Source: an uncultured Anaerolineae bacterium
GTDB taxonomy: Bacteria > Chloroflexota > Anaerolineae > Anaerolineales > Villigracilaceae
Direction of reading: 5' to 3'
Assembly (NCBI GenBank): GCA_937120535.1
Contig: CAKZJX010000026.1
Span: 1-45,099 of the forward strand
DNA: 45,099 nucleotides
In this document: positions 753-44,513 of the stretch, piece after piece
Numbering within the stretch: the first letter of the stretch is position 1
Layout of the letters: the number at the start of each line of letters is the position of its first letter
Notes under the pieces: generated by a model
The model's input: the letters and a program-made list of their open reading frames with translations, nothing else
What the model was told of the DNA's origin: nothing
Database searches by the model: none
Translations under genes and position numbers: made by a program

Positions 753-1007
753 ATGAGCGACATCATTGTCATGTATAGTGCAAGCTGGTGCCCCGACACA
801 CGTCGCGCACGCGCCTTTCTGGACGAGTATCACATCCCGTACCAGAACATCGATCTGGATGAACATCCCGAATACGTGGAATTCGTGAAGAGCGTCAACA
901 ACGGCAAACGCGTTATTCCGACCTTGGTCTTTCCCGATGGCACTATTTTGAGCGAGCCATCCAACCAGCAACTTGCAGAAAAACTAGGGATCGCCCTTGA
1001 GCCCTAA
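753..1007 (+). CDS. Glutaredoxin/mycoredoxin-like small redox protein
   Basis: An 84-residue thioredoxin-fold protein of glutaredoxin type, expected to act in the cytoplasm on disulfides or mixed thiols. After strand 1 (IIVMYSASW) comes the active site C13-P-D-T, a monothiol-like CxxT form. The cis-proline stretch VIPTLVFPDG and a final helix (NQQLAEKLGI) follow. Length matches stand-alone glutaredoxin-like proteins. The start was placed at this ATG, not at the upstream in-frame codon at 609, because GGAGG lies at 744-748 and the fold begins here. A decayed membrane-protein gene overlaps its last codons. With no second active-site cysteine it probably works by a monothiol mechanism with a low-molecular-weight thiol; the partner is unknown. 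Confidence 0.88.
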   Translation: MSDIIVMYSASWCPDTRRARAFLDEYHIPYQNIDLDEHPEYVEFVKSVNNGKRVIPTLVFPDGTILSEPSNQQLAEKLGIALEP

Positions 1008-12948: not shown

Positions 12949-13006
12949 ATCTAGTCCGCTCCTGCGTAGTTGGAGTATAATTGCTCTGGAACAACTGAAT
13001 ACAAAA

Positions 13007-13146
13007 CCTTCGGGGCAGGGTGAAATTCCCGATCGGTGGTATAGCCCACGAGCCTGGATGGGGGCAGCATCTTTCTCGGTGTAGAGAAAGCAGGCAGGAT
13101 TCGGTGAAACTCCGGAGCCGACAGTGACAGTCTGGATGGGAGAAGG
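13007..13146 (+). promoter_or_regulatory. FMN riboswitch (RFN element)
   Basis: The aptamer carries the conserved blocks GGGGCAGGGTGAAATTCCC, GGTGGTATAGCCCACGAGCC, GCAGGATTCGGTGAAACTCC, and the 3' end GACAGTCTGGATGGGAGAAGG. P1 is formed by CCTTC (13007-13011) and GAAGG (13142-13146). A TATAAT at 12976-12981 would give a start a few bases before the aptamer, though I see no good -35. It is followed by two terminators and by an ABC transporter operon, so FMN should switch that operon off. The 5' P1 region is complementary to both terminators' 5' arms. Confidence 0.96.
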
Positions 13147-13186
13147 GATGTCAGCGAACCCGCGTGTGGGTTGATCTCGATTCACG

Positions 13187-13219
13187 CCCCGAAACCGCTC
13201 TGGTTTTCGGGGTTTTTCT
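13187..13219 (+). terminator. First riboswitch-linked intrinsic terminator
   Basis: CCCCGAAACC (13187-13196) pairs with GGTTTTCGGGG (13202-13212) with one bulged T, followed by TTTTTCTT. It lies 40 bases after the aptamer. GCCCCGAA (13186-13193) is complementary to TTCGGGGC in the aptamer's first strand (13009-13016), which gives an antiterminator. Confidence 0.88.
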
Positions 13220-13256
13220 TCGGATCGGATCGCCACTCCTGACCGCGGCTTCTTTC

Positions 13257-13292
13257 AACGCCCCGAAGGATTGCTCTTCGAGGCGTTTTTTT
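13257..13292 (+). terminator. Second riboswitch-linked intrinsic terminator
   Basis: AACGCCCCGAAG (13257-13268) pairs with CTTCGAGGCGTT (13276-13287) with one C-A mismatch, followed by a run of T to 13292. GCCCCGAAGG (13260-13269) is an exact ten-base complement of CCTTCGGGGC at 13007-13016 in the aptamer P1 strand. It could also pair with the TTCGGGG of terminator 1's 3' arm. Confidence 0.85.
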
Positions 13293-13364
13293 ATGAGCCT
13301 AATGGTAGTTCATAAATTGACCCAACAGTTTCGTCGTTCGGTAGTGCTCTCTTCAAGAGGGATT

Positions 13365-14147
13365 ATGGCCACTCTCACCCAACGCGTGATCGCTCTCCGC
13401 TCATGGCTAGGGGGCCTCTCGGTCTTGTTGTTTCTCGCAACTTGGCATCTCGCAACGCGCTACGGCGGATTGCCGGCCTTTATCTTGCCTTCGCCGGCCG
13501 CAGTAGGACAGCGCTTCCTGCGCGCCGTGATGGAAGGCTTGCTGATCGAGCACACCCTGATCACTCTGCTGGAGGTCATGGTCGGGCTGGTCACAGGGGC
13601 ATCGCTGGCCACGCTGATCGGGTATGGGGTGGCCAAATCGCGCCTGCTCGAGAATCTGCTGGCCCCCTACTTAGTAGCCAGCCAGGCCATCCCAATGGTA
13701 GCCGTCGCTCCTCTGCTGATCATCTGGTTCGGGCCAGGACTGTTCTCCAAGTTCTTGATCTGCGCCCTGATTGTCTTCTTCCCAGTGCTGATCAACACCG
13801 TCGTCGGTGTGCGCGCCGTGCCCAAGGTGTATTACGAGCTGATGCGTTCTCTGCGAGCCACACGCCGCCAAACTCTGCTCAAGCTAGAAGTGCCGGCCGC
13901 TATGCCGATCTTGTTGGGAGGGCTGCGCATCGGCGCTACGCTCTCGGTGATCGGCGCAGTGGTCGGGGAATTGGTCGGCTCAGACCGTGGGCTAGGTTAC
14001 CTGATCTATGTGGGACGCAGTCAATACGATACGGCCCTGGTGTTCGTGGCGGTTTTCACCCTGATCGCCATGGCCTTAGGGTTGTATGGACTGGTCACCC
14101 TCCTCGAAAAGACTTTGCTGGCCTGGCAAGAGCAACCCAGGCTCTAG
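13365..14147 (+). CDS. ribX: ABC transporter permease, probable riboflavin importer RibX
   Basis: A 260-residue inner-membrane permease of the SsuC/ThiX/TauC type (BPD_transp_1). About six hydrophobic helices are visible, starting with WLGGLSVLLFLATWHLA. The region LRATRRQTLLKLEVPAAMPILLGGLRIG is the EAA-type loop that contacts the ATPase. Start at ATG 13365 with AAGAGGG ahead; an ATG at 13293 inside the terminator T-run is in frame but has no ribosome site. The gene is first after the FMN riboswitch. RibXY transporters predicted in Chloroflexi and other phyla have this makeup, so flavin uptake is the best reading; a pyrimidine or sulfonate substrate would be expected for relatives without the switch. 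Confidence 0.88.
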   Translation: MATLTQRVIALRSWLGGLSVLLFLATWHLATRYGGLPAFILPSPAAVGQRFLRAVMEGLLIEHTLITLLEVMVGLVTGASLATLIGYGVAKSRLLENLLAPYLVASQAIPMVAVAPLLIIWFGPGLFSKFLICALIVFFPVLINTVVGVRAVPKVYYELMRSLRATRRQTLLKLEVPAAMPILLGGLRIGATLSVIGAVVGELVGSDRGLGYLIYVGRSQYDTALVFVAVFTLIAMALGLYGLVTLLEKTLLAWQEQPRL

Positions 14148-14194: not shown

Positions 14195-15187
14195 ATGTTG
14201 CGCAAAATGGTTGTGAATCTGCTTGTGATGGGATTACTTCTGATGGCCTGTGGCCCGCGCCAAGCTCGGCCAGAAGCAGATGAATGGGTTGAGATTCGTC
14301 TGCCGGTGGGCTATATCCCCAACGTTCAGTTCCTGCCGCTCTACGTGATGCTCGAGAAAGGGTTTGCTCAAGAGCAGGGACTGCGGGTGACGATTGAGCA
14401 CAACGTTCGAGAAACCGATTCCGTAGCCTTGGTGGGGGCCGGCGAACTAGCCTTCGCCGTGGTCTCGGGCGAACAGGTGCTGCTTGCGCGCGCTCAAGGC
14501 ATGCCGGTGGTCTACGTGGCCGCCTGGTACCAGAAATATCCGGTCTCGGTGATCGCTACAGCCGAGCAGGGCATTCAAACCGTAGCTGACCTGAAAGGCA
14601 AGACCATCGGCCTGCCCGGCCCGTTCGGGGCAAACTACATTGGGTTGCAAGCCTTGCTGGCTTCGGCCGGCCTAAGCAATGCCGATGTCACCCTGTCCTC
14701 GATTGGCTTCGCCCAAGTGGAGGCCTTGGTTGCCGATCAAGTACAGGCTGTGGTCGGCTATGCCACTAATGAACCGATCCAACTCCGAGCCCGCGGTTAC
14801 TCAATCCAAGAACTGCGAGTGGCCGATTTTGTCTCGCTATGTTCCAACGGCATCATCACCAATGAAACCACCCTGCGCGAGAACCCCGACATGGTAAAGC
14901 GCCTGGTCAAGGCCTTCCTACAAGGCTTGGAATACACCGTCGCTCATCCAGACGAATCGTTTGAGATCGGCAAGAAATACATTGATGGCCTGGCCACCCT
15001 CAGCGAGGCAGAACAGGCGATCCAAAAGGAAGTGCTGCAGGTTTCGATTGAATTTTGGAAAGCCCCGCGCCTGGGATTCTCGGAAGAACAGGCCTGGCAA
15101 AACATGCACGATTCCCTGCTGACCATAGGCCTGCTCAGCGCCCCCCTAGATTGGAAATCCGCCTTTACTAATCAATTCATCCCCTGA
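14195..15187 (+). CDS. ribY: NMT1/THI5-like substrate-binding lipoprotein, probable RibY
   Basis: A 330-residue extracytoplasmic binding lipoprotein. The signal is MLRKMVVNLLVMGLLLMAC with lipidation at C19. The mature part opens with the typical strand IRLPVGYIPNVQFLPLYVMLEKGFAQEQGL and continues with AFAVVSGEQVLLARAQGMPVVYVAAWYQ and ADLKGKTIGLPGPFGANYIGLQALLASAG, the ligand-cleft segments of the NMT1/THI5/SsuA family. Start at ATG 14195 behind AAAGGAG; a longer open frame begins inside ribX in another phase and is spurious. It is in the FMN-riboswitch operon, which points to riboflavin or another flavin precursor as ligand. Confidence 0.88.
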   Translation: MLRKMVVNLLVMGLLLMACGPRQARPEADEWVEIRLPVGYIPNVQFLPLYVMLEKGFAQEQGLRVTIEHNVRETDSVALVGAGELAFAVVSGEQVLLARAQGMPVVYVAAWYQKYPVSVIATAEQGIQTVADLKGKTIGLPGPFGANYIGLQALLASAGLSNADVTLSSIGFAQVEALVADQVQAVVGYATNEPIQLRARGYSIQELRVADFVSLCSNGIITNETTLRENPDMVKRLVKAFLQGLEYTVAHPDESFEIGKKYIDGLATLSEAEQAIQKEVLQVSIEFWKAPRLGFSEEQAWQNMHDSLLTIGLLSAPLDWKSAFTNQFIP

Positions 15188-15240: not shown

Positions 15241-15993
15241 ATGACCTCGCCTACTACTCCGATCCTCACCGTTCATAACCTGAGCGCCGTCTTCCCCGAT
15301 AACAACGGCGGCCTGCAGGCCCTGGACCGCGTCTCCTTTCAAGTGTACCCGCGCGAATTCTTGGCTGTCCTTGGGCCTTCAGGGAGTGGCAAATCTACCC
15401 TCCTGCGCATCATCGCCGGCCTACTGCAGCCAACCGAGGGCAAAGTTTCGTTTGGCGATCATCGGCAACCACGCATCGGGATGGTCTTCCAACAAGCCAC
15501 CCTGATGCCCTGGCGAACGGTGATCCAGAACATCATGCTCCCTCTAGAACTGGACGGCACCGATCCACAACAAGCACGCGCTCGCGCCCGAGAACTGATT
15601 GACCTGGTCGGGCTGCAATCCTTTGAAAATCACTGGCCGCGGGAACTCTCGGGCGGCATGGCCCAACGGGTAGCCATCGCTCGAGCGCTGATCCACGACC
15701 CTGACCTGCTGCTGCTCGACGAACCCTTTGCCTCGCTCGACGCCTTGACCCGCGAACGAATGTGGGCTGAGCTTTTGCGCATCTGGCAGGCGCGTCAGAA
15801 GACGGTGATCATGGTGACCCACTCGATCAGCGAGGCGCTCTTCCTAGCCGATCGAGTGATCGTGTTCTCGGCTCGCCCGGGCCGCGTCAAACTTGACTTG
15901 AACGTGGACCTGCCCCGCCCACGCACCGACGAGATGCGTTACACCGCCCACTTCGGCCGCCTGGCACGCCGCCTCAAAGACACCATCGAGTGA
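15241..15993 (+). CDS. ABC transporter ATPase of the riboswitch-controlled importer
   Basis: A 250-residue nucleotide-binding subunit of SsuB/TauB/ThiZ type. Walker A is GPSGSGKST, the Q-loop MVFQQATLMPW, the signature [15 protein letters not shown], Walker B LLLLDEPFASLD and the switch histidine is in MVTHSISEA. ATG start lies 13 bases after the intercistronic hairpin with no clear SD, so it is probably translated at a lower level than the binding protein. It completes the permease/binding-protein/ATPase set and should power flavin import. Confidence 0.93.
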   Translation: MTSPTTPILTVHNLSAVFPDNNGGLQALDRVSFQVYPREFLAVLGPSGSGKSTLLRIIAGLLQPTEGKVSFGDHRQPRIGMVFQQATLMPWRTVIQNIMLPLELDGTDPQQARARARELIDLVGLQSFENHWPRELSGGMAQRVAIARALIHDPDLLLLDEPFASLDALTRERMWAELLRIWQARQKTVIMVTHSISEALFLADRVIVFSARPGRVKLDLNVDLPRPRTDEMRYTAHFGRLARRLKDTIE

Positions 15994-43983: not shown

Positions 43984-44132
43984 GTTTCTCCTTTTTATAG
44001 ATCGTCGAGATCAAGCCGACAAGATTATCGGAGCAACTTCCCCCCTTATCTCGGCCACCATGCAGGCTGTCCTGGTCAAAGACCTCTCCAAACGCTCCAA
44101 GCAAGGTAAGACTGCGATACCCAGCGAGCAGG

Positions 44133-44513
44133 TGGAGATGCCGGGAATCGAACCCGGGTCCGAAGGATTCGACCCTCGGAAATCTACGAGCGTAGCCAAT
44201 TGTTGCTGCTCACAACAAGCTCTCCAATTGGCAAGAGAGTCCTGTTGCTAGCCGTTGGGTCTTACGCACGTTTAGCGGCGTCCCGTGCGGCACTCCGCCT
44301 TTGTCACGCCCAACCGGTCCCTGGCGGAGCTCGGGGCCAGCGGACGCGGCCTTACTCAGAAGGCCAGCTGCTCATGCGCTCGCTTTAGGCAGCAAGCGGC
44401 AATGCAGCGTAGGAAGTGCGGTTGGCACTTTTTGTTTGCGCTGATTTTACGAGTTCGGCGCCTCTCGGCTCGCATTCCGGGACCAGCCTCCTCCGTCGAA
44501 ACCTGTCATCCCC
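44133..44513 (-). ncRNA. ssrA: Transfer-messenger RNA (tmRNA)
   Basis: Rescues stalled ribosomes and tags their products for degradation. The 5' end GGGGATGACAGGTTTCGACG and the 3' end with T-arm GGGTTCGATTCCC and CATCTCC-A form the tRNA-like domain (seven-pair acceptor with one G-T). The tag frame runs leftwards from resume codon GCG (44441-44439) to TAA (44387-44385) and reads AQTKSANRTSYAALPLAA, ending in the usual LAA degron. CCA is not fully encoded (ACC then T). A TATAAT lies 27 bases upstream of the mature 5' end. Confidence 0.95.

Follow-up and report, generated by a model that had tools for sequence, protein, structure and literature searches.

The leader analysed here resembles the Bacillus subtilis ribD-type FMN attenuator in its aptamer, a member of Rfam family RF00050. 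The terminator of B. subtilis ribD likewise has an arm with GCCCCGAA opposed to the aptamer strand. It differs from the ribD type in that a second U-tailed hairpin follows 45 nt on, with an arm set against the same strand, and this second hairpin is conserved in much of the order. In FMN switches of this type, which are well described, the ligand stabilises P1 and so favours an intrinsic terminator (PMC7573352).

One aptamer with two intrinsic terminators, 28 bp apart, has been reported for the c-di-GMP-I riboswitch Bc1 of the Bacillus cereus group, and the excerpted text states that expression platforms with a dual terminator are rarely seen and that T2 stays almost intact as the ligand rises, hiding the ligand response (PMC11218506). 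The Bc1 aptamer is different from that of the window, and the excerpts of the Bc1 account name no shared antiterminator strand (PMC11218506). Successive terminators in one leader, as in the window, also occur in tandem riboswitches, for which FMN doublets and triplets (PMC9481103) and a Na+/c-di-AMP pair (PMC9337991) have been described; in the excerpts of these papers several aptamers are present, one per terminator in the described pairs, whereas the window has a single FMN aptamer. The Chloroflexi ribXY operons reported behind FMN riboswitches (PMC3766115, PMC4418817) share phylum, regulator and, apparently, operon type with the window. The word "terminator" appears 0 times in the main text of PMC3766115 and 1 time in that of PMC4418817, and the passages seen of these papers carry no description of the expression platform. 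Our search of one open-access library of the literature, from which most subscription papers are absent, found neither an FMN case with two terminators nor a case of a shared strand; Bc1 was the one description of a two-terminator riboswitch that it gave. The statement in the preliminary description that no account of the arrangement was known thus stands for FMN within that literature, but two terminators behind one aptamer had already been published for Bc1, as the excerpts of PMC11218506 show. We read the locus as a known FMN OFF-switch, of which the new part is a conserved second terminator apparently served by the same strand.

Organisation of the leader and its operon

Scanning with cmscan of the window, that is, the whole 45,099-nucleotide stretch of DNA analysed, identified a single FMN aptamer that scored 100 bits (E 3.8e-22; cut-off 66.2) over the full model (1-138) and thereby exceeds the curated threshold for membership of RF00050 in sequence and structure. 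This was the only RF00050 copy found in the window and in the genome (97.94% complete), which does not amount to a multi-aptamer (tandem) architecture. The features of the leader and of the operon behind it are collected in Table 1.

Table 1. Features of the FMN leader and downstream operon, in window coordinates
Feature	Position	Strand	Basis
TATAAT, likely -10 of the leader promoter	12976..12981	+	read in sequence
FMN riboswitch aptamer (RF00050)	13002..13151	+	cmscan
Putative shared switching strand CCTTCGGGGC: P1 5' strand (13007-13011) plus aptamer core GGGGC (13012-13016)	13007..13016	+	Rfam alignment
P1 3' strand GAAGG, partner of CCTTC (13007-13011)	13142..13146	+	Rfam alignment
Small hairpin AACCCGCGTGTGGGTT between aptamer and terminator 1	13157..13172	+	-5.3 kcal/mol, z -1.4, weak alone
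Terminator 1 (T1): arms GCCCCGAAACC (13186-13196) and GGTTTTCGGGGT (13202-13213), U-run TTTTT (13213-13217)	13186..13217	+	hairpin fold
Terminator 2 (T2): arms AACGCCCCGAAGG (13257-13269) and TCTTCGAGGCGTT (13275-13287), one C.A mismatch, U-run (13286-13292)	13257..13292	+	hairpin fold
ribX-like ABC permease (BPD_transp_1)	13365..14147	+	start 13365 picked by N-terminal likeness to relatives
ribY-like NMT1/THI5 substrate-binding protein	14195..15187	+	PF09084, E 1.5e-52
Operon ABC transporter ATPase	15241..15993	+	PF00005

The two U-tailed hairpins fold at -16.0 kcal/mol (z -3.1) for T1 and -15.5 kcal/mol (z -3.8) for T2. The switching strand forms 8 consecutive Watson-Crick pairs with the 5' arm of T1 and 10 with that of T2. 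Judged by sequence, both hairpins thus carry an arm that competes for the aptamer strand, and the leader has the Bc1-like layout of one aptamer with two intrinsic terminators. The preliminary description, which had placed an FMN riboswitch with two successive terminators at 13007-13292 and had a single strand of the aptamer complementary to both 5' arms, was borne out in its coordinates and in both pairings. Its label of "P1 strand" for 13007-13016 is right for CCTTC, whereas GGGGC lies in the aptamer core in the Rfam alignment, so that an antiterminator would draw on both P1 and the core. The small hairpin ahead of T1 might serve for pausing or as a spacer; by eye, small GC hairpins of this sort recur in other leaders, for example in GGCCCGCGCGGGTCT forms.

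Upstream, a TANNNT-type box precedes 63 of the 69 aptamers sampled from the order in a rule-based box search. Between TATAAT and P1, at 12992-13001, lies CAACTGAATA, which has the form CAAYNRAATA, a motif found ahead of 40/69 order aptamers and probably located at the transcript start. The combined pattern of TATAAT, 4-9 bases and CAAYNRAATA gave 9 matches in 13 genomes, and FMN leaders account for 5 of the 9; the gap in the window itself is longer than 4-9 bases and does not fit this pattern. Three of the other sites of the motif gave no FMN aptamer. Pairing of CAAYNRAATA with other parts of the leader was sought by eye, and nothing consistent emerged.

Downstream, the operon looks like a vitamin transporter of the riboflavin-uptake ribXY type. 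The permease, the NMT1 binding protein and the ATPase fit the ribXY layout, and no curated model labels the proteins as riboflavin-specific. Among the best 80 loci of a RibX search, the closest named ones were those of an isolate of Anaerolinea thermophila, at 75% identity, and of Anaerolineales bacterium UBA7227, at 72%, and on this ground we place the organism in the order Anaerolineales of the Chloroflexota. The permease frame has a second in-frame ATG at 13293, and a small ferredoxin gene stands on the other side of the FMN leader from the operon. Elsewhere in the window, a tmRNA gene occupies 44130-44513 (-), with a tag predicted by ARAGORN as ANKKCQPHFLRCIAACCLKRAHEQLAF, which we take to be long compared with usual tmRNA tags.

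Distribution and conservation of the paired hairpins

Leaders were sampled across the phylum by RF00050 matches, giving 177 in total: 69 from the same order as the window (all 58 leaders of the first matched set plus 11 more), 62 from other orders of the class and 46 from other classes of the phylum, the latter two sets being part of the matches. All were counted individually, with kinship ignored. A strict detector, which counted U-tailed hairpins that form 6 or more Watson-Crick pairs with the aptamer strand of the same leader, found at least two complementary terminators in 35/69 leaders of the order, in 7/62 from other orders of the class (in one of these, G190, the second terminator looks spurious) and in 0/46 from other classes. 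A motif scan of the 69 order leaders for hairpins starting NCCYCR at the T1 and T2 places found T1 in 57, T2 in 56 (a few doubtful) and both in 47; in G010, G052 and G059 an unusually long or atypical hairpin was picked up as T2. With 35/69 leaders by the strict detector and 47/69 by the motif scan, many related leaders keep both complementarities, as the check set in the preliminary description asked.

Chance accounts poorly for these counts. When the 200 nt behind each of the 69 order aptamers were dinucleotide-shuffled 20 times (n=1380), two or more terminators pairing with the strand over at least 6 bases appeared in 1/1380 shuffles vs 35/69 real leaders. Under the same filter, a complementary arm of at least 6 was carried by 1/43 terminators outside FMN leaders vs 74/94 terminators of order leaders. 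Conservation of the T2 arm in the motif scan is partly circular, because the scan itself demands NCCYCR; when this demand was lifted, 46 leaders showed a total of 48 hairpins at the T2 place, and of these hairpins 43 carry [GAT]CCYC and 37 have at least 6 pairs to the strand.

Leaders with both hairpins occur in 10 of the 14 families of the order; 22/69 order leaders do not show the pair. Within the window's genus, the pair is present in each of the six leaders matched, while in two more genomes no aptamer was matched. Three leaders stand ahead of ribD instead of ribX (G021, G045, G050), and two of them, G021 and G050, have two hairpins, the second U-run of G021 being weak.

A second sample was anchored on the RibX protein and consisted of the best 80 named loci of the scan. 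Here aptamers were called by sequence pattern, not by Rfam, and 12 loci missed by the pattern were added by Rfam. An aptamer lay upstream in 71 of these best 80 loci, and at least two such hairpins were found in 35/71 (in L253 the second is doubtful); after removal of the 17/80 loci that overlap the first sample, 24/54 had two or more. Among the 9/80 loci without an aptamer, five gave no FMN match in Rfam, and four, with 5-429 nt upstream, fell outside the Rfam check. Leaders with a single hairpin include those of Leptolinea sp. HRD-7 and a Brevefilum isolate. As separate observations, L212 has three hairpins with GCCCCGAA arms behind one FMN aptamer, and L184 carries a c-di-GMP-II-GAG riboswitch (46.4 bits) at 767-870 (-), on the other strand upstream of the ribX locus.

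Core and arm were also compared for covariation, with three leaders lacking a readable core. Leaders with a CGGGG core had 85 CCCCG arms and 1 CCCTG arm, with 4 matching both patterns and 67 neither, while CCCTG-type arms accompanied a CAGGG core in four leaders (G096, G218, G379, G508) and [GA]CCCCG arms in 0. The association of CGGGG with CCCCG and of CAGGG with CCCTG has a Fisher p of 2e-6, kinship being ignored. No matching arm was seen in 13/17 CAGGG leaders; in two of these 13 (G307, G268) the arms match CGGG more closely than the core that the leader itself carries. In G253 and G508 a core with a terminal T is accompanied by an A in the arm, but four other leaders with a terminal T (G045, G200, G074, G277) showed no matching arm. 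The core hardly varies in two-terminator leaders, so that this covariation supports a single or first terminator and not T2 itself.

Ligand-free folding and rival explanations

We computed equilibrium partition functions for 45 two-hairpin leaders in a ligand-free model that contains neither FMN nor tertiary contacts nor polymerase. Two of the 47 leaders (G044, G057) had been dropped as having no core at the start of the Rfam match, with TTCGGGGC lying upstream. The core was predicted on the T1 arm once that arm had emerged in 42/45 leaders, and on the T2 arm once emerged in 40/45; at the T2 decision point, T1 still holds the strand in 0/45. In arm-shuffled controls, the strand was on T1 in 43/225 and on T2 in 23/225. 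The earlier proposal that one strand could hold either terminator open is therefore supported by the complementarity and by the ligand-free folds.

For the window, the strand was calculated to be on T1 at 13200 (-72.3 vs -59.9 kcal/mol for P1) and on T2 at 13270 (-107.2 vs -86.2 kcal/mol for P1). For the whole leader, the strand on T2 with T1 closed gave -115.3 kcal/mol, the strand on T1 -108.7 kcal/mol, and P1 with T1 and T2 -103.6 kcal/mol. In the minimum-energy length series, T1 holds the strand at 13191-13221 and 13233, and T2 holds it at 13269-13287 and 13310. At 13227, 13239-13263 and 13293-13305 the strand pairs elsewhere, so that the predicted picture of a hand-off is not seamless.

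Tandem terminators are common in bacteria, and only T1 might be controlled by FMN, with T2 a plain back-up that reduces basal read-through whether or not FMN is present, its GCCCC arm being a relic of duplication or composition. We consider this unlikely. The median T2-strand pairing of only 6 bases across the folded leaders speaks for such a back-up, as do the excerpts on Bc1, in which the unwinding of T1 was masked by a T2 that remained almost intact (PMC11218506). The fourth base of the T2 arm, at the mismatch position, is in an ordinary C-G pair in 25/56 leaders and a T-A pair in 8/56, as in any hairpin. Against a back-up stand the rarity of complementary arms in other terminators (the 1/43 above), the ligand-free folds with the strand on T2 (40/45) and the state of the T2 stem. 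In 20/56 leaders the 5' arm GCCCCG is kept opposite CGAGGC despite a C.A mismatch, while pairs 7-9 of the upper stem change and for the most part stay paired; in a relic one would expect drift or repair. Since the NCCYCR scan demanded the CC part, the argument against a relic rests on the mismatch. Selection for the hairpin only might be expected to repair it, and its retention could follow from the need of the 5' arm to pair with the aptamer as well, so that we take it as an indirect sign for aptamer pairing of the T2 arm. T1 has a similar mismatch, CGGGAT, in 12/57 leaders, and four single-terminator leaders (L206, L209, L211, L217) show the same GCCCCG/CGAGGC mismatch in their sole terminator of the kind.

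T2 might instead act mainly on translation, its 3' arm CGAGGC hiding a Shine-Dalgarno GAGG near the start codon, and we regard this as quite improbable. In 10/56 leaders, that of the window among them, the first in-frame ATG comes 6-11 nt after T2 (G000, G004, G008, G014, G025, G044, G052, G059, G233, G344; a frame was found in 48), so that T2 could act on translation there and may hide a ribosome site. Such a near ATG (<12 nt) occurs in 5/22 CGAGGC leaders with a frame, the window's own included, vs 0/11 CGGGGC leaders, and in the window GAGG stands 9 nt before ATG 13293. On the other hand, the N-termini of relatives favour ATG 13365 for the window, about 78 nt past T2 and with its own AAGAGGG, which makes T2 unlikely as a Shine-Dalgarno lock in this leader. 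In 12/22 CGAGGC leaders with a frame, the first ATG is >30 nt off, and the U-rich tail is kept in those inspected; by the same 12/22, a GAGG ribosome-site effect was rejected as a general explanation of the C.A mismatch and is an alternative for a minority of leaders. The preliminary description had also raised a cascade, in which T1, when held open, leaves its 3' arm free to bind the T2 5' arm and so open T2. The pairing is available, with TTCGGGG (13206-13212) able to form 7 pairs with the T2 arm in the window and a median of 5 in relatives, but it is preferred at the T2 decision point in 0/45 leaders, and the duplex of aptamer and T2 is stronger than that of T1 3' arm and T2 in 40/45. For the window, the strand on T1 plus this relay comes to -101.5 vs -115.3 kcal/mol for the strand on T2 with T1 closed. 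The folding models favour a hand-off of the strand over such a cascade, which we judge very improbable.

A candidate switch with two serial terminators

Probably, though by no means certainly, the leader is an FMN OFF-switch of a riboflavin-uptake (ribXY-type) operon in which two serial transcription terminators use one antiterminator strand. Without FMN, P1 would be weak. As the 5' arm of T1 emerges, the strand would leave P1 and the core and pair with this arm, blocking T1; once the polymerase is past, T1 may close harmlessly behind it and free the strand, which would then pair with the 5' arm of T2 and keep that terminator open too. With FMN bound, the strand would be locked in the aptamer and both terminators would form, so that a polymerase slipping past T1 would meet T2. 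We infer termination itself, the control of either terminator by FMN and the hand-off in real time from the pairings and folds described above.

More tentatively, and as a possibility to which we give rather less than even weight, the leader may be a sensor with two checkpoints, the strand being tested at T1, released as T1 closes and retested at T2, so that a kinetically controlled switch would sample FMN twice per passage. If this were so, the OFF state would be sharper and half repression would need less FMN, with no second aptamer, and the occurrence in 10 of the 14 families would suggest an old origin within the order.

The usual drawing of a riboswitch shows a single aptamer that takes a single decision. 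If one strand opens two terminators in turn, a conserved leader of this kind raises the question of whether an RNA can decide the same thing twice during a single passage of the polymerase. As a simple natural system it comes with many homologues, in which single-terminator relatives such as Leptolinea sp. HRD-7 can serve as controls, and the arrangement bears on how tight control may be reached without tandem aptamers.
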